Assembly (NCBI GenBank): GCA_022842165.1
Contig: JALHQC010000044.1
Coordinates: 1-35,052, forward strand
Length of the DNA: 35,052 nt
Direction of reading: 5' to 3'
Source: a bacterium
Lineage (GTDB): Bacteria; Pseudomonadota; Alphaproteobacteria; Rhizobiales; Aestuariivirgaceae
Shown: positions 2,208-21,473 of the stretch, piece after piece
Layout: each line of letters starts with the position of its first letter
How positions within the stretch are numbered: position 1 is the stretch's first letter
Made by a program: the position numbers and the translations under genes
Notes under the pieces: generated by a model
What the model saw: only the letters and a program-made list of their open reading frames with translations
Databases searched by the model: none
Told to the model about the DNA's origin: nothing

Positions 2208-5177
2208 ATGAACAAGACGGACCTGACCACGGCATTCGAGCAGACCTCGTTTCTCTATGGCGGGAACGCCCAGTTCATCGAACAGCTCTATGCGAAATAT
2301 CTCGAAAATCCCGCCGCCGTGGACCAGCACTGGCGGCAGTTCTTTGCCGGGCTCGAAGACAATGCGGAGCAGGCCAAGGCGCAGGTGAGCGGACCTTCAT
2401 GGGCGCGGAAGGATTGGCCCCGCGCTGAATCGGGCGAGCTTGTTTCCGCACTCGACGGGCAATGGCCTGTGGTTCCGCCTGCCGCCGCGAAGGGTGGCGC
2501 CAAGCCTGCAACGGCTGAGAAAGCGCCAGGGCTTTCGGCGGACGACGTGCGCAAGGCGACGATGGATTCGGTCCGTGCACTGATGATGATCCGCGCCTAC
2601 CGGATGCGGGGTCATCTCGCCGCCGACCTCGACCCCCTGCGCCTCAAGGAAGAAGTGTCGCATCCCGAGCTTGACCCCGCATCCTACGGATTTTCGGGCG
2701 CGGACCTCGACCGGCCGATCTTCCTCGATCATGTGCTGGGCCTCGAGCATGCGACCGTCCGCCAGATCGTCGACATCCTGAAGCGCACTTACTGTGGCAC
2801 GCTGGGCGTCGAGTTCATGCATATCTCGGACCCCGAGCAGAAGGGCTGGATCCAGGAGCGGATCGAGGGCGCCGACAAGTCGATCAGCTTCACGCCACAA
2901 GGCAAGAAGGCGATCCTCAACAAGCTGATCGAGGCCGAGGGCTTCGAGAACTTCCTCAATGTGAAATATACCGGCACCAAGCGCTTCGGGCTCGATGGCG
3001 GGGAATCGATGATCCCGGCGCTCGAACAGATCATCAAGCGCGGCGGCCAGCTGGGCCTCAAGGAAATCGTGCTGGGCATGGCGCATCGCGGTCGGCTGAA
3101 CGTGCTGGCCAACGTGATGTCGAAGCCGTTCTCGGCGATCTTCCACGAGTTCAAGGGCGGGTCATCGACGCCCGATGAAGTGGAAGGTTCGGGCGACGTC
3201 AAATATCATCTGGGCTCGTCATCCGACCGCGCCTTCGACGACAATGTGGTGCACTTGTCGCTCACCGCCAATCCGTCGCATCTCGAGATCGTCGATCCGG
3301 TCGTTCTCGGCAAGGCGCGGGCCAAGCAGGACCAGCGGAAGGACAAGGAGCGCACGAGCGTGCTGCCGCTGCTGATCCATGGCGATGCGGCTTTCGCGGG
3401 GCAAGGTGTCGTCGCCGAATGCTTCGGGCTTTCGGGACTGCGCGGGCATCGCTCGGGTGGTTCGATCCACTTCATCGTCAACAACCAGATCGGCTTCACG
3501 ACGAGCCCGCACTGGTCGCGCTCTTCGCCCTATCCTTCGGACGTTGCGAAGATGATCGAGTCGCCGATCTTCCATTGCAATGGCGATGATCCGGAAGCGG
3601 TGGTCTATGCCGCGAAGATCGCCATGGAGTTCCGGCAAAAGTTCAAGAAGCCTGTCGTCATCGACATGTTCTGCTATCGCCGCTTCGGGCACAACGAGAC
3701 AGACGAGCCGGCCTTCACGCAGCCCTTGATGTACAAGCGGATTGCCGGGCAGCCGACGACCGTGACGCTTTATGGCAAGCGGCTGATCGAAGAGGGTGTC
3801 ATCTCGGCGGAAGAGTTCGACGCCATGAAGGCGGCCTACCGCAAGTCGCTGGACGAGGATTTCTCGGTGTCCGAAGGCTACAAGGCCAACAAGGCCGACT
3901 GGCTGGATGGCCGCTGGGCCGGCCTCAAGGCCGCGAAGGACCATGAGGAACCGCGCAAGGGCGAGACCGGCGTTCCGGCGGCAAAGCTGAAGGAAATGGG
4001 CCTCAAGCTGACGAAGGTGCCGAAGAGTTTCAAGGTTCACCGCACCATGCAGCGCGTGCTGGATGCGCGGCGCAAGATGATCGAGGAGGGCAAGGGCCTC
4101 GACTGGGCGATGGCGGAGCATCTGGCCTTCGGCACGCTGCTGATGGACGGGTTTCCGGTCAGGCTTTCGGGCCAGGACGTGCAGCGCGGCACCTTCTCGC
4201 AGCGCCATGCGGTGCTGGTCGACCAGGAGAACGAGAAGCGCTACACGCCGCTCAATCACCTCGTGAAGGACCAGCAGATCAAGATCGACGCCATCAATTC
4301 GATGCTGTCGGAAGAAGCCGTGCTGGGCTTCGAATATGGTTTCTCGCTGGCGGAACCCAATGCGCTGACGATCTGGGAAGCGCAGTTCGGCGATTTCGCC
4401 AATGGCGCGCAGGTGGTGTTCGACCAGTTCATATCTTCCGGCGAGCGCAAGTGGCTGCGCATGTCGGGTCTCGTGTGTCTGCTGCCGCATGGCTATGAGG
4501 GACAGGGGCCGGAACATTCCTCCGCCCGGCTCGAACGCTTCCTGCAGATGTGCGCGGAAGACAACATGCAGGTGGCGAACTGCACGACGCCGGCGAACTA
4601 CTTCCACATCCTGCGCCGCCAGTTGAAGCGCGACATCCGCAAGCCGCTGATCATCATGACACCGAAGTCGCTGCTGCGCCACAAGCGTGCGACGTCTTCG
4701 CTTGCCATGATGGACGAGGGCACGACCTTCCACCGGCTGTTGTGGGACGATGCCGAGATGATCGCGGATGAGGCGGTGAAGCTTGTGGCCGACGACAAGA
4801 TGCGCCGCGTGGTGCTGTGTTCGGGCAAGGTCTATTACGATCTTTACGAGGAGCGCGAGAAGCGCGGCCTGAACGATGTTTATCTGCTGCGCATCGAGCA
4901 GCTTTACCCGTGGCCGCACAAGGCGCTGATCAACATTCTCTCGCGCTTCCGCCAAGCCGAATTCGTGTGGTGCCAGGAAGAGCCTTACAACATGGGGGCG
5001 TGGAGCTTCGCGCAGCCCAATATCGAGCGTGTGCTCGAATTCATCGGCGCTCAGAAGACGCGGCCACGCTATGCGGGACGGCTGCCTTCGGCCTCGACCG
5101 CGACGGGACTGATGAGCCGGCATCTGAAGGAGTTGAAGAACTTCCTCGAAGAAGCATTGGGCGACAGCAAGGTTTAA
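2208..5177 (+). CDS. sucA: 2-oxoglutarate dehydrogenase E1 component
   Basis: Thiamine-diphosphate-dependent E1 subunit of the 2-oxoglutarate dehydrogenase complex, which decarboxylates 2-oxoglutarate and passes the succinyl group to the lipoyl arm of SucB. The protein has 989 residues, normal for alphaproteobacteria. In order it shows the N-terminal E2-binding segment (TSFLYGGNAQFIEQLYAKYL), the HRGRLNVL and GDAAFAGQG motifs of the ThDP-binding domain, the RFGHNETDEP segment, and the transketolase-like domain with EYGFSLAEP and LLPHGYEGQGPEHSSARLERFLQ. The ATG at 2208 was preferred over an in-frame ATG at 2139 because the extra 23 residues would be encoded by the palindromic repeat. The protein then starts MNKTDLTTAFEQTSF as in homologues. 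sucB follows 12 bp after the stop. Confidence 0.97.
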   Translation: MNKTDLTTAFEQTSFLYGGNAQFIEQLYAKYLENPAAVDQHWRQFFAGLEDNAEQAKAQVSGPSWARKDWPRAESGELVSALDGQWPVVPPAAAKGGAKPATAEKAPGLSADDVRKATMDSVRALMMIRAYRMRGHLAADLDPLRLKEEVSHPELDPASYGFSGADLDRPIFLDHVLGLEHATVRQIVDILKRTYCGTLGVEFMHISDPEQKGWIQERIEGADKSISFTPQGKKAILNKLIEAEGFENFLNVKYTGTKRFGLDGGESMIPALEQIIKRGGQLGLKEIVLGMAHRGRLNVLANVMSKPFSAIFHEFKGGSSTPDEVEGSGDVKYHLGSSSDRAFDDNVVHLSLTANPSHLEIVDPVVLGKARAKQDQRKDKERTSVLPLLIHGDAAFAGQGVVAECFGLSGLRGHRSGGSIHFIVNNQIGFTTSPHWSRSSPYPSDVAKMIESPIFHCNGDDPEAVVYAAKIAMEFRQKFKKPVVIDMFCYRRFGHNETDEPAFTQPLMYKRIAGQPTTVTLYGKRLIEEGVISAEEFDAMKAAYRKSLDEDFSVSEGYKANKADWLDGRWAGLKAAKDHEEPRKGETGVPAAKLKEMGLKLTKVPKSFKVHRTMQRVLDARRKMIEEGKGLDWAMAEHLAFGTLLMDGFPVRLSGQDVQRGTFSQRHAVLVDQENEKRYTPLNHLVKDQQIKIDAINSMLSEEAVLGFEYGFSLAEPNALTIWEAQFGDFANGAQVVFDQFISSGERKWLRMSGLVCLLPHGYEGQGPEHSSARLERFLQMCAEDNMQVANCTTPANYFHILRRQLKRDIRKPLIIMTPKSLLRHKRATSSLAMMDEGTTFHRLLWDDAEMIADEAVKLVADDKMRRVVLCSGKVYYDLYEEREKRGLNDVYLLRIEQLYPWPHKALINILSRFRQAEFVWCQEEPYNMGAWSFAQPNIERVLEFIGAQKTRPRYAGRLPSASTATGLMSRHLKELKNFLEEALGDSKV

Positions 5178-5189
5178 GGGACAGACAGA

Positions 5190-6437
5190 ATGGCAAAAGA
5201 AATCCGCGTACCGGCCCTGGGCGAATCCGTCACCGAGGCCACGATTGCAAAATGGTTCCGGCAGGCGGGCGATGCGGTGAAGGCCGATGAGCCGCTCGTC
5301 GAACTCGAAACCGACAAGGTGACGGTGGAAGTGCCGGCACCGGCATCGGGCAAGCTGTCGTCGATCGATGCGGCACCGGGCACCACCGTGAATGTGGGAG
5401 CACTTCTGGGGCTGATCGAGGAGGGTGCCGCGGGGGCCTCGACCGCGAAGGCCGTAGAAGCGCCGGCGCCGAAGAAATCCGAACCGGCTTCTGCTCCCGC
5501 GCCCGCTGCTGCCGCCAAGGCGGATACGCCACTGTCGCCCGCCGTGCGGAAGATGGTGGAGGAGAACAAGGTCGATACCGGTGCCGTGGCCGGAACCGGC
5601 AAGGATGGGCGCATCACCAAGGGCGATGTGATCGCGCATCTGGAAAAGCCTGCCGCTCCCGTGGCCGAGGCAAGGCCGCTGGTCATTCCGGCGGCACCTG
5701 CACCGGCAGCGCGGGCACCTTCCGCCGCGGGCGATGGCGCGCGGGAAGAGCGTGTGAAGATGTCGCGGCTTCGCCTGACGATCGCGCGGCGGTTGAAGGA
5801 TGCGCAGAACACGGCGGCGATGCTCACCACCTTCAACGAGGTGGACATGACGGCGACGATGGCGCTCAGGAACCAGTACAAGGACCTGTTCGAGAAGAAG
5901 CACGGCGTGAAGCTGGGATTCATGAGCTTCTTCGTCAAAGCCTGCATCGCGGGCCTGAAGGAGATTCCGGCGGTCAATGCCGAGATCGACGGCGATGATA
6001 TCGTCTACAAGAATTTCTACCACATCGGCGTGGCGGTGGGCACCGAGAAGGGCCTTGTCGTTCCCGTATTGCGCGATGCGGACAATCTTTCGTTCGCGGG
6101 CGTTGAGAAGACGATTGCCGATTACGGCAAGCGCGCGCGTGACGGGCAGTTGCAGATCACCGACATGCAGGGCGGCACCTTCACGATCTCGAACGGCGGC
6201 GTCTATGGCTCGCTGATGTCGACGCCCATTCTCAATGCGCCGCAGTCCGGCATCCTCGGCATGCACAAGATCCAGGAGCGGCCGGTGGTGGTGAACGGGC
6301 AGATCGCGATCCGCCCGATGATGTATCTGGCGCTGTCCTATGATCACCGCATCGTCGACGGCAAAGAGGCCGTGACCTTCCTCGTGCGCGTGAAGGAAAA
6401 TCTGGAAGATCCGCAGCGTTCGATTCTGGATTTGTAA
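5190..6437 (+). CDS. sucB: Dihydrolipoyllysine-residue succinyltransferase (E2 of 2-oxoglutarate dehydrogenase)
   Basis: E2 core of the 2-oxoglutarate dehydrogenase complex. It transfers the succinyl group from lipoate to CoA. The 415-residue protein shows one lipoyl domain with the lipoylation lysine at residue 43 ([11 protein letters not shown]), an Ala/Pro-rich flexible linker (about 85-111), a peripheral-subunit-binding domain (about 112-150, [11 protein letters not shown]...GRITKGDV), a second Ala/Pro linker, and a C-terminal acyltransferase domain. The acyltransferase catalytic motif is DHRIVDG (His386, Asp390). Domain order and length are typical of a single-lipoyl SucB. It lies 12 bp after sucA, so the two are almost certainly cotranscribed. 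A palindromic element follows the stop codon. Confidence 0.97.
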
Positions 6438-6581: not shown

Positions 6582-7328
6582 ATGACAAACGTTGCCATCG
6601 TGACAGGCGGAAGCCGGGGGATCGGGCGGGCTGTTGCGCTGAAGCTTGGCAAGGCGGGGTATAGCGTTGTCGTCAACTATGCGACCAATGCGAAGGCGGC
6701 GGATGAGGTTGTCTCGGCCATTACAGCCGATGGTGGCAAGGCTGTGGCCTTGCGGGGTGACGTTGGCGTTGAAGCCGATGTTCTCAATCTTTTCGCGGAG
6801 GCTGCGAAGCTTGGTGACCTCCGTGTGCTGATGAACAATGCCGGCATCATGGACCGGCAGAACCGGCTCGATGAAATGTCGACCGAACGGCTGAAGCGGC
6901 TGTTCGACGTCAACATCCTCGGCTCGTTCCTGTGCGCGCGGGAGGCCGTGAAGCTGATGTCGACCAAGCATGGCGGCAAGGGCGGGGCGATCGTCAATCT
7001 TTCGTCAGCAGCTTCGGTGCTGGGTGCGCCTGGAATGGGTGTGGAATATGCGGCCTCGAAGGGTGCCATCGACGTGATGACGATCGGGCTAGGCCGCGAA
7101 GTGGCTGCCGAGGGCATTCGCGTCAACGCCGTGCGGCCCGGCATCATCGATACCGAAATCCACGACAGTTCGGGCATTCCCGGCCGCGTGAAACTGATGC
7201 GCGACGTGATCCCCATCAAGCGCGAAGGCACGGCGGACGAAGTGGCCGACGTGATGATGTGGCTCGCCTCCAAACAATCTTCCTATGTGGTTGGAACCAT
7301 CGTGGCGGTCGCCGGCGGGCGCTGCTGA
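6582..7328 (+). CDS. Short-chain dehydrogenase/reductase (SDR) family oxidoreductase
   Basis: Classical SDR, an NAD(P)-dependent cytosolic oxidoreductase of 248 residues. The cofactor motif TGGSRGIG lies at residues 8-15, NNAG at 85-88, the catalytic serine in NLSSAAS near 142, and the YxxxK pair at Tyr156 and Lys160. The C-terminal half has the AVRPG segment typical of FabG-like members. Substrate cannot be read from sequence. It resembles sugar/alcohol SDRs and FabG paralogues rather than a dedicated fatty-acid reductase. It sits between sucB and lpd, 20 bp upstream of lpd, so it is probably cotranscribed with lpd. A role linked to the 2-oxoglutarate dehydrogenase complex is not implied by the family and is only suggested by position. 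Confidence 0.9.
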
Positions 7329-10679: not shown

Positions 10680-11684
10680 TCACTGCAGGGGAACGACCTT
10701 GTAGCCCGCGCCGCGGATCAATTCCACAAGGCCCTGCTCACCGGGCAGGTGCAATGCGCCCACTGCAATGAAGGCGTTGCCTTTGGCCAGCAGCTCTTCC
10801 GCGCGGCGCATCATGATGCGGTTGCGCTCCGTCATTTCGTCCTCCATGAATTTCGTGAGTTTCATGTCCAACTCTTCAGGCGGACCGTACCCGCTCGCAA
10901 GCGGGTCCACTGCCGCAACTCTTCGCTGAGTATAAAGGCTGATGATGGTTTCGTAGATGTCTTCGGCGTCTGTTCCAGTGTTGGCGGCGTTCAGCAATTC
11001 CTGAACCTGGAGCTCGGAAGGCATGTTCTCCAGCTGTTCGAAAAACTCCTCGACTGTTTCGAGCCCGACAACCGGAATGCTGCTCTTGACCGCTAATTCT
11101 GCCAGGGCTTCATCGAGTATGGGTATGCCTGCATCCTTACGCGCCTCTTCACAAGGCAATTCATCTACGATGTTGGTGACCACCCATGGCCTGTAAGCAG
11201 AGATTTTTTCGATGATCTCTGGCGTCATGTTGGGATGGTTTCGGATCAGTGATTCCTTTGAGTCAGGTATGAAGTCCCAAAGCGTTTGGCCAACCGGCAG
11301 ATCGAGATTCTGTCGATAAAGAGACAATGCGCGTGCGAGCTTCTCTTCATCCGCAATCTCCTCCACTTCGACAGCTACGACCGCAGCTCCCAAGAGCGCC
11401 TTTCGGGTGATGTCCGGCAGATCGGCGACGCGAGGATCGGTGACGTGGATTGTGCCCAACAGATAGGAAGGCTTGGTGCCTTCACGATCAATCCGCCAGA
11501 ATACCGCCTCACCGTTTGAAGCTTTTTCTGCCTGTGCCAAGACAGAGTCGTATCGTCTGGGGTGCTCATTCTTGAGTTTGGCGAAAAGGTCAGTGCCACC
11601 GCAAACCGGAGGACTTTTTGACCAGAGCATGAATGCGCCAATGCCAACCAATAGCACAACCAAAGCAGCGAGCAGCCGTTTCAT
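10680..11684 (-). CDS. TraB/GumN family protein, copy A
   Basis: Member of the TraB/GumN (PF01963) family, 334 residues. The N-terminal hydrophobic stretch (about residues 3-22) looks like an uncleaved membrane anchor or a signal peptide without a clear AxA site, so the body is expected in the periplasm. The family core appears as FWRIDREGTKPSYLLGTIHVTDPR (GTIH motif near residue 78) and the C-terminal VGALHLPGEQGLVELIRGAGY. TraB-domain proteins are proposed to be metal-dependent peptidases, but function in bacteria is poorly known. The body is visibly less GC-rich than its neighbours. The last 149 bp are almost identical to copy B, whereas the rest is clearly divergent. It lies downstream of copy B with a 55-bp gap. 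Confidence 0.85.
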   Translation of the reverse strand: MKRLLAALVVLLVGIGAFMLWSKSPPVCGGTDLFAKLKNEHPRRYDSVLAQAEKASNGEAVFWRIDREGTKPSYLLGTIHVTDPRVADLPDITRKALLGAAVVAVEVEEIADEEKLARALSLYRQNLDLPVGQTLWDFIPDSKESLIRNHPNMTPEIIEKISAYRPWVVTNIVDELPCEEARKDAGIPILDEALAELAVKSSIPVVGLETVEEFFEQLENMPSELQVQELLNAANTGTDAEDIYETIISLYTQRRVAAVDPLASGYGPPEELDMKLTKFMEDEMTERNRIMMRRAEELLAKGNAFIAVGALHLPGEQGLVELIRGAGYKVVPLQ

Positions 11685-11739: not shown

Positions 11740-12741
11740 TCACTGCAGGGGAACCACCTTGTAGCCCGCGCCGCGGATCAATTCCACCAGGCCCTGCTCA
11801 CCGGGCAGGTGCAATGCGCCCACTGCAATGAAGGCGTTGCCTTTGGCCAACAGCTCTTCCGCGCGGCGCATCATGATGCGGTTGCGCTTGATGGTGAGGT
11901 CCTGCTCGACGAAGGCCATCATCTTCTCGCTGTCGGCATTGGCGGGTTCGACCCGCAGCGTCAGGGGCATATAGGCGGTGATGAGGCGCCGGTCGTAGAG
12001 GCTGATCAGGGTTTCGAAATAGTCTTCGGTCTTGGGGCCGAGCCTGGCCACGGAGATGAGATAATTCACCTGGAGGTCGAGCGGCATGGCGGCGAAAACC
12101 GAAAGCTGCTCCTCGACGGTTTCGAGGCCGACAACCGGCGTGCCGGACTTCGTGGCATCTTCGGCGATCATCATGTCGAGCGGGGGGAGGCCTGCCTGCT
12201 CGCGGGCCTGTTCGCAGGCGGGGATTGAAAGCATGGCGGCAACGACCCAGGGCTGATAGCCGAAGATCGACTGCCTGGCGTGTTGCGGCAGGTTGGGGTT
12301 GTCGCGGACCAGCGGCTCCTCGGCATCGGGGATCAGGTCCCACAGCGTCTGCCCGGGCGGGAGAACCATGAGGCGGGCAAGCTTCATGGCGGCAAATGCA
12401 AATTCCTGGCTGTCGCGCAGTTCCTTCAGTTCGAGGGCCACGACATCGACGGTATCGAGTGCGGCCTCGACCTGCAGCGGCAGGGCGGTGACACGTGGAT
12501 CGGTGACATGGGCGGTGCCGAGCAGGAAGGAGGGTTCGATGCCGTCACGCTCGATCCGCCAGAAGACCGCCTCGCCATTGGGCGTGGCGCGGGCCTCGGC
12601 CATGACGGCCTCATAATCGGCCGGACGCTCGGCTTTCAACTGGTCGAGCAGGTTGGCGCCGGCGCAGGCGGGCGGCATTTCCGCATGGGCGGGGCCGAGG
12701 CCGACGGCGATGCCGAGCAGGAGGGCGGCGATCCATTTCAT
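11740..12741 (-). CDS. TraB/GumN family protein, copy B
   Basis: Paralogue of the adjacent gene, 333 residues, same TraB/GumN family. It has a clean Sec signal peptide (MKWIAALLLGIAVGLGPAHA, cleavage predicted after AHA near residue 20) and is therefore periplasmic. Family motifs are FWRIERDGIEPSFLLGTAHVTDPR and the C-terminal VGALHLPGEQGLVELIRGAGYKVVPLQ. The two copies align over their full length, but only the last 47 residues plus stop are identical in protein. GC content is like the surrounding genome. The ATG overlaps the xerC stop codon (ATGA), so translation is coupled to xerC. The biochemical role is unknown; peptidase activity is only a family hypothesis. Confidence 0.87.
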   Translation of the reverse strand: MKWIAALLLGIAVGLGPAHAEMPPACAGANLLDQLKAERPADYEAVMAEARATPNGEAVFWRIERDGIEPSFLLGTAHVTDPRVTALPLQVEAALDTVDVVALELKELRDSQEFAFAAMKLARLMVLPPGQTLWDLIPDAEEPLVRDNPNLPQHARQSIFGYQPWVVAAMLSIPACEQAREQAGLPPLDMMIAEDATKSGTPVVGLETVEEQLSVFAAMPLDLQVNYLISVARLGPKTEDYFETLISLYDRRLITAYMPLTLRVEPANADSEKMMAFVEQDLTIKRNRIMMRRAEELLAKGNAFIAVGALHLPGEQGLVELIRGAGYKVVPLQ

Positions 12742-17739: not shown

Positions 17740-19920
17740 ATGACTGCCGATTCCGCCACGGATCCCAAAGTTGCCGAGGTACTTCTGCCGCTGGCGCTGG
17801 AGGGGGCCTATTCCTATGGCATTCCGGACGGCATGACGCTGCGGCCCGGCGATTTCGTCGCCGTGCCGCTGGGGCCGCGGCAGACGATCGGCGTCGTCTG
17901 GGCGCTCAAAGCCGAGGCCGGAACGGACAAGAAACTGCGCGACGTGATCGGCTGGTTCGACATGCCGGCCTTGTCCGAAACGCACCGGAAATTCATCGAC
18001 TGGCTTTCGGCCTATTACCTCGAACCGGCCGGGAACGTGCTGCGCATGGTGCTGCGGGCGCCCGGCGCCTTTGAGCCCCCGCGCGAGCAGATCGCCTATC
18101 GCGCCACCGAATCGGTTCCGAAACGGATGACGCCACAGCGCGCGCGGGTGCTGGAAATCGCGCGTGAGGGCTTCGCCATGCGGGCCGCGGAACTCGCCGA
18201 AGCGGCGGGCGTGGGCACTTCCGTGGTGAAGGCGCTGGCGAAGGACGGGGCGCTGGAAGCCGTGGCGCTGCCGGCACTTCGGGCCTTTACGGAGCCTGAC
18301 CTCAATGCCGGGGGCTTCACGCTGTCGAAGGATCAGGCGCAAGCGGCGCAGGCCTTGCGGGCCGTGGTGGCGCAGCGCCAGCACAAGGTGATGCTGCTCG
18401 ATGGCGTCACTGGATCGGGCAAGACGGAGGTTTATTTCGAGGCGATGGCGGCGGCGCTGGCAGCAGGCGTTCAGGTCTTGCTGCTGCTGCCGGAGATTGC
18501 GCTGACCGGACCGTTTCTGGAGCGTGTCGAAAAACGATTCGGATGCGAACCGGCGCAATGGCATTCGGATGTTCGGCCGCGCGAGCGGGAGCGGGTGTGG
18601 CGGGGCGTGGCAGACGGCACGGCCCGCATCGTTGTCGGCGCGCGCTCGGCCCTGTTCCTGCCATGGAAGAAGCTGGGGCTCATCGTCGTCGATGAGGAGC
18701 ATGAAAGCGCCTACAAGCAGGACGAGGGTGTGCCCTATCACGCGCGTGACATGGCGGTGCTTTATGGCGCGCTGGCGAAGTTTCCTGTGGTGCTGTCATC
18801 GGCCACGCCGTCGCTCGAGACTTTGGTGAATGTCGATCGCGGGCGCTATGGCGTGGTGAAGCTGAAGGACCGGCATGGGCGGCCGGAGCTGCCGGAGATC
18901 GGGCTGATCGACATGAAGTCCGTGGCGCTGGAACCCGGCGCGTGGATTTCGCAGCCGCTGTTCGAGCAGGTGGAGGCCACACTTGCCTCGGGTGACCAGG
19001 CGCTGCTGTTCCTCAACCGCCGGGGCTATGCACCGCTGACGCTGTGCCGCGCCTGCGGGCACAGGCTCGAATGCCCCAATTGTGCGGCTTCGCTCGTCGA
19101 GCATCGCTTCCGGCGGCAGCTGATGTGCCATCACTGCGGGCATCTCGAACCGATGCCGCAGGCCTGCCCGCATTGCGGCGTTCACGGCAAGATGGTGCCG
19201 GTGGGGCCGGGCGTGGAGCGGCTGGCGGAAGAGGCGGCGCTGCGTTTTCCGGAGGCGCGGATCACCATATTGTCGAGCGATCTGTCGCGCGGGACGCTGC
19301 TGCGCGACGGGCTGAGAGATGTGGCGGAGGGGCACTATAATCTCGTCATCGGCACGCAGCTGGTGGCGAAGGGGCATCACTTCCCGCATCTCACACTGGT
19401 GGGTGTGGTCGATGCCGATCTGGCGCTCGAATCGAGCGATCCGCGCGGCGGTGAGCGGACTTGGGCGCTGATGGCGCAGGTGGCGGGACGTGCGGGGCGA
19501 GGCGCCAAGCCGGGTGCTGCGCTGGTGCAGACCTATCTGCCCGAGCATCCGCTGATGAAGGCTTTGCGGAAGGGCGACCGCGATTCCTATCTCGACCAGG
19601 AAAAGATCATCCGCGAGACTGCCGGGCTGCCGCCTTATGGACGGCTGGCGGCGATCATCATTTCAGGCACCGACGCGCATGAGACGGAACGCTTTGCACG
19701 GAATATCGGCATGATCGCGCCGCTGGCGGAGGGCGTCACCGTGCTGGGGCCCGCACAGGCGCCCATTTCCATCGTGCGCGGGCGGCACCGGATACGGTTC
19801 CTCGTGAAGGCGACGCGGGAGGTGAATATCCAGGGGTTTTTGCGGCTGTGGCTGAAGGACGTGAAGCCCAAGGGCTCGCTGGCGCTGCAGGTGGATGTGG
19901 ACCCGTATAATTTTTTGTAA
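17740..19920 (+). CDS. priA: Primosomal protein N' (replication restart helicase PriA)
   Basis: Superfamily 2 3'-5' DNA helicase of 726 residues that recognises stalled forks and reloads the replisome. It has the N-terminal 3'-end-binding domain (about 10-110), a winged-helix region, helicase motif I GVTGSGKTE (222-230), the DEEH box (318-321), SSATPS motif III, and the zinc-binding insert with eight cysteines (436, 439, 445, 448, 463, 466, 476, 479). Motif VI appears in QVAGRAGRG. All active-site motifs are intact and length is normal. The protein ends VDVDPYNFL, and a degenerate second copy of this terminal coding sequence lies 436 bp downstream at 20357-20386. It diverges from pabB. Confidence 0.97.
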   Translation: MTADSATDPKVAEVLLPLALEGAYSYGIPDGMTLRPGDFVAVPLGPRQTIGVVWALKAEAGTDKKLRDVIGWFDMPALSETHRKFIDWLSAYYLEPAGNVLRMVLRAPGAFEPPREQIAYRATESVPKRMTPQRARVLEIAREGFAMRAAELAEAAGVGTSVVKALAKDGALEAVALPALRAFTEPDLNAGGFTLSKDQAQAAQALRAVVAQRQHKVMLLDGVTGSGKTEVYFEAMAAALAAGVQVLLLLPEIALTGPFLERVEKRFGCEPAQWHSDVRPRERERVWRGVADGTARIVVGARSALFLPWKKLGLIVVDEEHESAYKQDEGVPYHARDMAVLYGALAKFPVVLSSATPSLETLVNVDRGRYGVVKLKDRHGRPELPEIGLIDMKSVALEPGAWISQPLFEQVEATLASGDQALLFLNRRGYAPLTLCRACGHRLECPNCAASLVEHRFRRQLMCHHCGHLEPMPQACPHCGVHGKMVPVGPGVERLAEEAALRFPEARITILSSDLSRGTLLRDGLRDVAEGHYNLVIGTQLVAKGHHFPHLTLVGVVDADLALESSDPRGGERTWALMAQVAGRAGRGAKPGAALVQTYLPEHPLMKALRKGDRDSYLDQEKIIRETAGLPPYGRLAAIIISGTDAHETERFARNIGMIAPLAEGVTVLGPAQAPISIVRGRHRIRFLVKATREVNIQGFLRLWLKDVKPKGSLALQVDVDPYNFL
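19891..19920 (+). repeat. Direct repeat, left copy (3' end of priA)
   Basis: The last ten codons of priA including the stop (VDVDPYNFL*). A second copy at 20357-20386 matches 24 of 30 bases in the same orientation. Three of the six differences are silent third-position changes. Together the two copies bracket 436 bp that contain a small AT-richer gene, as expected for an insertion or allele replacement at the 3' end of priA. Confidence 0.75.
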
Positions 19921-19951
19921 TTCTTGGAATGATGCATCGAAGGGGAATGCC

Positions 19952-20341
19952 ATGTGGATGGGAAAGCACAAGAAGTGGAATCCACTTCCACAATTCGCAG
20001 AAAAGACTTTCTTTGCTCTTCAATTACACGATGACAAGGACGGTTTCCGACTCCAGTTCGAGTTACGCGACCCTCACCTCCTGCTGACAGCAAGTTTCGA
20101 CTCCCAGCTTCTCTACATGAATGTAGATGAAGGTGACCGCCTGCTCTCCGCGGAAGTTGAAGGTGAATTTCCGCATTTGTTCTGGAAGGTAGAAGCCTCA
20201 GAACTGACGGGCCGCTTCTGCCAAATGACATCAGGCAAATTCGAAGCCAACAGCATTACGCATTTCGTGTTCATAAGCGTAGACGACTGCATCGACGTGC
20301 TCGCACTGGAAGGACCAAATTTCAGCTGGGTACAGAGATAA
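19952..20341 (+). CDS. Hypothetical protein, AT-richer orphan
   Basis: A 129-residue protein of no family I recognise. The start ATG at 19952 was chosen for its strong GAAGGGGAA ribosome-binding sequence; a longer frame from 19895 would overlap priA. It is soluble-looking, with no signal peptide or membrane segment. It has a run of alternating hydrophobic strands (GFRLQFELRDPHLLLTASF, LLYMNVDEGDRLLSAEVE, THFVFISVDDCIDVLAL) that suggests a beta-rich fold. Base composition is clearly more AT-rich than flanking genes, and codon choice differs (for example many GAA, ACA and TTC/TTT-rich stretches). It lies between two copies of the priA 3' end and is probably acquired DNA. Function is unknown. 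Confidence 0.65.
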   Translation: MWMGKHKKWNPLPQFAEKTFFALQLHDDKDGFRLQFELRDPHLLLTASFDSQLLYMNVDEGDRLLSAEVEGEFPHLFWKVEASELTGRFCQMTSGKFEANSITHFVFISVDDCIDVLALEGPNFSWVQR

Positions 20342-20356
20342 AGCATATCGCTACTG

Positions 20357-20386
20357 GTGAATGTGTTCCCGTATAACTTCTTATAA
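20357..20386 (+). pseudogene. Degenerate second copy of the priA 3' end
   Basis: Reading in frame, these 30 bases encode VNVFPYNFL and a TAA stop, against VDVDPYNFL and TAA at the end of priA. The preceding codons (SISLL) also resemble priA (SLALQ), extending the similarity upstream to 20342 in protein. There is no open frame upstream, because a stop codon lies at 20339-20341, so this is a remnant and not a gene. The synonymous differences suggest it comes from a diverged priA allele rather than a very recent tandem duplication. Confidence 0.7.
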
Positions 20387-20396
20387 CGGCGAAGAG

Positions 20397-20515
20397 GCCC
20401 TCATCCCCCTGTCGGGACCTTCTCCCATGGCAAGCCACGGGAGAAGGCACATCTTTATTTGCGCCTTCTCCCGTTCGAAGAATGGGAGAAAGTGGCCAAT
20501 AGGCTGGATGAGGGC
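20397..20515. repeat. Intergenic palindromic element (CCTTCTCCC type)
   Basis: Outer arms GCCCTCATCC (20397-20406) and GGATGAGGGC (20506-20515) are perfect inverted repeats. Inside are two hairpins: CCTTCTCCC/GGGAGAAGG (20418-20447) and a similar less perfect one near 20464-20490. The element lies between convergent genes and a related copy is found at 21474-21525, so the epimerase gene is flanked on both sides. A terminator role for both flanking genes is plausible. Confidence 0.8.
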
Positions 20516-20517
20516 TC

Positions 20518-21441
20518 TTACCTCGAGAACCGCCATTCCATGCGGTGTTTGTAGACTTCTCCGGGGCGTAGTACGGCACTTGGGAAGTTCGCATGGTTCG
20601 GTGCGTCGGGGAAGTTTTGCGGTTCGATGGCGATGGCGGCGGATTGCTTGAGTGGTCCGCTGCGGCCGGGCATGGCTTCGTTCCAGTGCCAGGCTGTGTA
20701 CATCTGCATCCCGGCTTCGGTGGTCCAGACATCCATCTGGCGGCCCGAGACGGGATCGCGCAATGTGAGGCCGTGGCGCAGGGTGCCGCGATTGCCGTTC
20801 AGCACCCAGCAATTGTCGAAGAACTCTCCAACGATCTTCCGTGTACGGAAGTCTTGGCGCGCACCATCGACTTTGCGGATTTCGCCGGAGGGGAGCAGCA
20901 GGTCGTTCAGCGGCAGGAAGCTCTCAGCGTCGATCATCATCTCGTGCGCGAAGGCGTTGCGTTCGCCGCCCGAGAGATTCCAGTAGGCGTGGTTGGTGAG
21001 GTTGATGACGGTGGGCTTCGTGGTGCGGGCTTCGAGGTCGAGGGCCAGCGTATCGCCATCAAGCGTGTAGGTGGCGGTTGCATCGACGGCGCCGGGATAG
21101 CCCTGGTCGCCATCGGGGGAATGGATGGTGAAGCGGATGGAATTGTCCGTGGACTGAGCTTCCCAGTGGCGGTTGCCGAAATTGTCCGGCCCGCCGTGAA
21201 GCTGGTGCTCGCCCATGTTGGGGGTGAGCTTGTGCTCGGTGCCGTCGAGCGTGAAGCGGGCGTTGGTGATGCGGCCGGCGATGCGGCCGATGACGGCGCC
21301 GGCCGTCCAGTCGCCGGCGAGGAATTGTTCATCGGTGCCGCCACCTGCAACGAGGTCGACACCGTCCATGTAGAGGGAAACCAGCCGTGCGCCGAGGGTT
21401 GAGAAGGTGGCGCGGAGATGGGGCGATTTGAGTTCGAGCAT
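20518..21441 (-). CDS. galM: Aldose 1-epimerase (mutarotase)
   Basis: Galactose-mutarotase-like enzyme of 307 residues that interconverts alpha and beta anomers of free aldoses in the cytosol. Conserved features are LVSLYMDGVDLVAG, the substrate loop GEHQLHGGPDNFGNRHW (His82), the catalytic acid His151 in INLTNHAYWNLSG, and the catalytic base Glu273 in IAIEPQNFPDAPN. The ATG at 21441 was chosen because GAGGA lies at proper spacing; a TTG five codons upstream is possible. It is downstream of a xylonate-type dehydratase on the same strand with a 104-bp gap containing a repeat, fitting a role in pentose or hexose catabolism, though cotranscription is not certain. Confidence 0.92.
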   Translation of the reverse strand: MLELKSPHLRATFSTLGARLVSLYMDGVDLVAGGGTDEQFLAGDWTAGAVIGRIAGRITNARFTLDGTEHKLTPNMGEHQLHGGPDNFGNRHWEAQSTDNSIRFTIHSPDGDQGYPGAVDATATYTLDGDTLALDLEARTTKPTVINLTNHAYWNLSGGERNAFAHEMMIDAESFLPLNDLLLPSGEIRKVDGARQDFRTRKIVGEFFDNCWVLNGNRGTLRHGLTLRDPVSGRQMDVWTTEAGMQMYTAWHWNEAMPGRSGPLKQSAAIAIEPQNFPDAPNHANFPSAVLRPGEVYKHRMEWRFSR

Positions 21442-21473
21442 CGTGGGTGTCCTCAACAGGTGCGCTTCGCGCC

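Follow-up and report, generated by a model that had tools for sequence, protein, structure and literature searches.

An immunity-like gene between two copies of the priA 3' end in an Aestuariivirgaceae genome

The priA locus and its repeated 3' end

The DNA considered here, referred to as the window, is a stretch of 35,052 bp from a member of the Aestuariivirgaceae (Alphaproteobacteria; Rhizobiales) and represents the entire contig JALHQC010000044.1 (C44) of a 4.3-Mb genome (assembly GCA_022842165.1); the genes it carries are of alphaproteobacterial character. In this window, the primosomal gene priA is directly followed by a short A+T-richer segment that carries a single small gene, after which the last bases of priA appear a second time. 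The two copies of the priA 3' end are referred to below as tail 1 (upstream) and tail 2 (downstream). The central features of the locus are:

17740..19920, + strand: priA, full length with an intact end (Pfam PriA_3primeBD, DEAD, Zn_ribbon_PriA and PriA_C; identity to 11 congeners steady towards the 3' end)
19883..19920, + strand: tail 1, the 38 bp that end priA and recur downstream (local alignment)
19921..20348, + strand: foreign, A+T-richer inserted segment between the tails
19952..20341, + strand: gene for a 129-residue protein, probably an orphan immunity protein whose family is unnamed (judged from the gene contexts of its relatives)
20349..20386, + strand: tail 2, the downstream copy of the priA 3' end, which has decayed

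The last 30 bases of priA (19891-19920, encoding VDVDPYNFL and the stop) recur on the same strand at 20357-20386 (VNVFPYNFL and the stop) with 24 of the 30 bases identical and a spacing of 436 bp. Three of the six differences are silent and three change the protein, all of which agrees with the preliminary description of this locus. The best local match is longer and spans 38 ungapped columns with 30 identities, the longest identical block being a core of 9 bp, CCCGTATAA. The reading frame of priA is intact at the insertion point, and the stop codon lies 31 bp upstream of the start codon of the 129-residue gene.

A chance origin of the tail duplication is unlikely. Among 4908 sampled 30-mers of the window, none finds a match of 24/30 within the next 600 bp, the maximum of 23 being reached by two. 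With the last 60 bases of priA as query, the observed score is 36, whereas 274 other overlapping 500-bp segments, taken on both strands, score no higher than 26 and none of 20,000 first-order Markov shuffles of the downstream 500 bp reaches 36 (largest 29). In a control using the gene ends of the window, 27 ends were scored and the 26 others reach at most 25. Chance similarity in a genome-wide scan had been named as a possible refutation of the duplication, and the tail pattern CCNTAYAAYTTYYTNTAA occurs only twice in the 4.3-Mb genome, both times at these tails. When the own tail of each of 24 other priA loci in the genus is compared with about 1.5 kb of the sequence downstream, the best match reaches 14 to 19 of 30. 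Across the order, a looser tail pattern is present in 45 of 297 genomes (the other 252 are uninformative about a second tail), and only the genome studied here has two copies near each other; in other genomes with two copies, these lie on different contigs.

The inserted gene and its relatives

The segment between the two 30-base tails (19921-20356) has a G+C content of 48.9% compared to 63.1% for the window, and the gene itself has 49.0% (56.9% at third positions) compared to 66.1% (79.9%) for priA, which bears out the difference in composition that had been reported. The gene is absent from the 60 other relatives searched, 36 of which are congeners, and is foreign. It is the only gene of the 436-bp insert. 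Its product matches no model of Pfam, PHROGs, NCBIfam or PADLOC at E values up to 1, so that the earlier statement that it has no recognised family stands for the curated libraries; beyond these, the protein falls into an immunity-like family without a name. In 385 genomes of the class and 398 of the phylum, searches returned only the genome itself and one weak match each, while the viral, phage and plasmid collections gave only two records of one Paenibacillus phage (E 0.4) and the solved structures no convincing match.

The closest relative, P0003, is 42% identical over residues 1-124 and was found in a metagenome-assembled genome (MAG) of the Lysobacterales, as the sole relative from one genome-contig scan. 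Its gene (5001-5405 of locus L034) is the first one beside a divergently oriented integron integrase (3844-4806, - strand; 388.9 bits against a cut-off of 265). An attC-like end behind it, at about 5400-5475, was read by eye, and its hairpin has a z of -1.75, with 10 of 200 shuffles being as good. A profile built from the two sequences matches in 3 of 348 genomes of the Lysobacterales, the MAG of P0003 included. The two new members reside in loci L048 and L049 and both are associated with RHS proteins. The L048 member, 30% identical to the window protein over 123 columns (E 1e-12 when the two sequences are compared), is encoded 10 bp behind an RHS protein, and the open reading frame of the L049 member (E 1e-5 to the window protein and 2e-9 to P0003) overlaps the end of another, its start codon being uncertain. 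The toxin-like C-termini of these two RHS-core proteins are related to each other. With the L048 member and its neighbour as queries, family members were also reached on plasmids: a Duffyella plasmid (L095) carries one 6 bp behind a hemagglutinin-repeat protein, the end of which is 55% identical to that of the L048 protein, and a Cronobacter plasmid carries one that adjoins an annotated 'immunity 42 family protein'. The preliminary description had asked whether the protein always follows priA or a priA tail elsewhere; the relatives described here lie beside an integron integrase, behind toxin-like ends or next to an annotated immunity gene. The toxin-linked L048 member has no relative in the viral contigs.

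The toxin-like end of the L048 protein has no match in the genome studied here at E values up to 0.1. In the genus, 8 of 37 genomes match at E 0.007 to 0.1, which was judged too weak to count. Since the relatives of the 129-residue gene include one next to an immunity gene and others that follow the toxin-like ends of RHS or hemagglutinin-repeat proteins, and such an end was not found in its own genome, the gene is most likely an orphan immunity gene, judging by the company its family keeps. The genome may nevertheless contain a toxin of another sequence.

Two further observations concern this family. The unnamed toxin-like C-terminus is common to RHS and hemagglutinin-repeat proteins (L048 5254-5571, L049 5036-5500 and L095 about 3640-3871) and ends in ..RPTxxxQ..VRYGxK in L048 and L049. 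Against Pfam, the L048 end, with a query that is approximate in its first residues, gave a weak match to DUF7232 (E 0.026) as its sole match. In addition, a distant family member (L064 7170-7526, - strand, E 2.6e-5) is located, together with further small genes, between a plsX-like and a fabH-like gene. A duplication of the plsX-like tail beside this member was looked for and none was found.

Comparison of priA ends among congeners

The gene priA was found in all 37 genomes of the genus. Thirty loci were retrieved and 25 of these, including the one described here, were scored; left out were L012, which is cut by a contig end, and L017, L018, L024 and L026, in which the strict tail pattern was not matched. 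The remaining 24 congener tails were compared with both copies over 39 bases. Tail 1 carries no private base and is separated by 2 differences from L013, its nearest congener, whereas tail 2 differs from each of the 24 congeners at no fewer than 9 positions and has 4 private bases, all of them protein-changing (Q to L, D to N and D to F). The similarity of tail 1 to the congeners and the private protein-changing bases of tail 2 give the appearance of a duplicated end of which the downstream copy has decayed. Furthermore, in both tails the last leucine codon is TTR and the stop TAA, a combination that all 24 congeners lack, which favours a duplication within the lineage itself. These alignments are most simply read as a duplication of one end within this lineage, with probable decay of the downstream copy. 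This renders doubtful the proposal of the preliminary description that tail 2 stems from a diverged priA allele.

A second tail is absent from about 1.5 kb of downstream sequence at all 24 other congener loci and from 6-7 kb of downstream sequence at 19 priA loci of other families (20 loci minus L086, which is not a priA end). The comparison of priA 3' flanks that had been proposed as a check therefore yields no second case, and the lack of a second tail at these loci points to a one-off event.

The region downstream of tail 2 contains two further features:

20399..20517, no strand assigned: palindromic intergenic sequence between tail 2 and galM, presumably REP-like (DNA fold -37.9 kcal/mol, z -5.86 over 20380-20525)
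20518..21456, - strand: putative galM-like gene, the convergent neighbour of priA (relatives located behind priA by tblastn)

A convergent galM-like gene lies behind priA, within the fetched stretch, in 19 of the 24 other scorable congener loci as judged by tblastn (20 of 25 with the present locus). The priA-galM gaps of these congeners, measured to the edge of the tblastn match, range from 0 to 1323 bp, 16 of the 19 falling within 0 to 386 bp. The 131 bp between the end of tail 2 and the galM stop are usual for a locus without an insert, and tail 2 is thus at the position of the native end. The gap varies in both length and content among congeners (L009, L015, L022, L025, L028 and L032), which argues that it tolerates insertions. 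No RNA family matches in 19500-21000.

As a separate observation, a promoter-like sequence, TTGACAGCGCGCGCTCGNKGTGCTAGG, is conserved between priA and galM in four congeners (L005, L006, L007 and L011) and is absent from the window even when 3 mismatches are allowed. It is perhaps a small RNA or a left-over promoter.

Routes of insertion and their implications

The observations are best explained by a one-off insertion of a foreign immunity gene behind priA through recombination or repair, in which the end of priA was duplicated and the downstream copy became a relic; we assign this a probability of about 0.6. A foreign gene, presumed to be promoterless, would have arrived at the 3' end of priA in a single event within this lineage. 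The recombination or repair event, possibly an illegitimate recombination or a capture at a staggered break, would have kept priA whole and left its last approximately 38 bp on both flanks. The upstream tail would be the functional end under selection and the downstream tail a relic that has decayed since. The gene would be expressed by read-through from priA. Its family probably confers immunity to the toxins at the C-termini of RHS and hemagglutinin-repeat proteins, the latter resembling those of contact-dependent inhibition (CDI), and the gene itself would likely shield the cell from such toxins when they come from neighbouring cells. This one-off capture or illegitimate recombination with duplication of 38 bp is favoured, as it needs nothing beyond what is seen.

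Several points weigh against this explanation. The congeners are distant, with 180-base windows of priA being 61-91% identical to 11 of them, and as no near relative with an empty site is available, we infer the insertion rather than observe it. Against the same 11 congeners, none of them close, there is no mosaic signal along priA or at its 3' end. The silent differences between the tails are all located to the right of the core CCCGTATAA and the protein-changing ones all to its left (3 versus 3), a split that a crossover inside the 9-bp core between two coding tails, as in site-specific integration, would also explain; with six differences the pattern is not decisive. As for the tail match itself, two of 3749 random 60-mers of the window score 38, both at one place near 6867 and with gaps, so that chance could produce an equally strong match at some point of the 35 kb, although no gene end other than that of priA comes near this score. 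With respect to the family, the window protein is distant from the toxin-linked members (18-31% identity) and as the sole query finds no match in plasmids. P0003 matches the Cronobacter gene at E 0.3 only, and the plasmid members enter through L048. Finally, eight plasmid records have a related toxin-like end, and among the three examined the next gene is a clear family member only in Duffyella; in Bradyrhizobium and Lactococcus, the protein that follows the related end bears only a weak resemblance to the family.

The alternative that survives best, which we regard as possible at a minority share of the probability, is the import of the gene together with a priA end. Here, a donor with the gene already behind its priA would have recombined homologously inside priA and illegitimately at the end of the recipient's priA, leaving the old tail behind. 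Such an import overlaps with the one-off insertion favoured above and differs from it only in the source of tail 1. It accounts for the immunity gene, the intact priA and the left-behind tail, and homology-facilitated illegitimate recombination is proposed for the orphan immunity genes of Vibrio type VI secretion system (T6SS) arrays and for the orphan 3' regions of Rhs (PMC5361080). That process is alike in that a new segment comes to lie behind a conserved gene body while the old 3' material stays downstream, and different in that the anchor here would be priA instead of an effector gene, only 38 bp are left and no mosaic signal was found. Further points against an import are that no donor was found, with the gene in 0 of 36 congeners searched, that identity along priA shows no change, and that both tails carry the leucine and stop codon pair absent from the 24 congeners.

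Rather unlikely is site-specific integration, in which a circular element with an attachment site mimicking the end of priA would have supplied a replacement end, the 466 bp being a minimal element or a remnant whose integrase was lost or never present. Genomic islands occur at the 3' ends of conserved genes, such as tRNA genes and trmE. The insertion exactly at the stop codon with the frame of priA intact and the 38-bp direct repeats with their identical 9-bp core resemble such islands, and the distribution of silent and protein-changing differences would fit a tail 1 made of a native left and an element-derived right part and a tail 2 of the reverse composition. However, site-specific integration needs a recombinase and normally recurs. 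The insert contains one gene and no integrase, the repeats are only 79% identical (30/38) instead of nearly so, and a second case was found neither at the 24 other congener loci nor at the 19 loci of other families, where two probes (tblastn) also detected no recombinase in 6-7 kb downstream; among the 45 genomes of the order with the pattern, only the present one has two copies near each other. Tail plus insert is unmatched in viral contigs, phages and plasmids: the tail pattern has five matches in viral contigs, all in another protein, and one Sphingomonas plasmid matches the priA tail only, inside a priA gene. No paper naming priA as an integration site was found among those listed by literature searches, which is no proof of absence in print. 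Hence, of the earlier suggestion that DNA had inserted at the 3' end of a conserved gene, the insertion part is upheld by the foreign gene at the priA stop, the intact priA end and the native position of tail 2, whereas an integrating element with a replacement end lacks both integrase and recurrence. The insertion scar is real; a mobile element aiming at priA is possible and unsupported.

A more speculative version, to which we give little credence, is a mobile immunity cassette of minimal size (about 470 bp) that would consist of one promoterless immunity gene and an attachment site mimicking the coding 3' end of priA, be moved by a recombinase acting in trans and be read from the priA promoter. 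If true, this would amount to an integron-like movement of antidote genes via the ends of housekeeping genes instead of attC.

That the gene arrived as an integron cassette and used a secondary genomic (attG-like) site is very improbable. In favour of this, its closest relative has an integron integrase on one side and an attC-like hairpin on the other, and the single gene without an evident promoter would, putatively, resemble a cassette. In contrast to cassettes, however, the repeats here are priA ends, no hairpin at 20325-20400 exceeds its shuffles on either strand (z -0.16 and -0.28), and no integron integrase passes the TIGR02249 cut-off in any of the 37 genus genomes, the present one included. 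Moreover, we know of no cassette insertion that duplicates 38 bp of its target. A cassette still in place was rejected for lack of an attC and of an integrase over the cut-off. Least credible of all is that tail 2 is unrelated to priA and similar by chance, since the one other place in the window with a similar, gapped score stands against the location of tail 2 at a stop codon, a tail pattern found nowhere else in the genome and gene-end and congener controls without a comparable match.

Three other candidates were tried and rejected. Template and variable repeats like those of diversity-generating retroelements do not fit, as tail 2 has an A at only 2 of the 6 differing positions (a reverse transcriptase was not searched for). 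A tandem duplication with loss of the second gene copy disagrees with the 40 bases behind tail 2, which are unlike those behind tail 1. The CGTATAA block is reminiscent of an Xer half-site; as a Xer/dif-like site it fails because the block belongs to a conserved coding part of priA and a matching second half is unrecognisable.

Elsewhere in the window, two adjacent paralogous genes (10680-11684 and 11740-12741, both on the - strand) are identical at 146 of their last 150 bp, while the rest cannot be aligned without gaps. Their common ends are perhaps due to a recent conversion or duplication of the 3' end.

Among known systems, the inserted gene compares best with the orphan immunity genes of polymorphic toxin systems (RHS, CDI and T6SS). 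It is likewise a small foreign gene without a matching toxin end in the genome, and family members elsewhere are located directly behind toxin-like ends and, in one case, beside an annotated immunity gene. It differs from these in standing alone behind a housekeeping gene, outside any secretion or toxin locus, and in belonging to a family without a model in the four libraries searched. What had appeared to be an orphan gene is now a member of an unnamed immunity-like family with representatives behind RHS and hemagglutinin-repeat toxin-like ends and beside an integron integrase. The locus also offers a rare readable scar of how a single antidote gene can take up a place downstream of a housekeeping gene and leave the latter unharmed. 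Should further scars of this kind exist, antidote genes may have safe landing places at the ends of convergent conserved genes.

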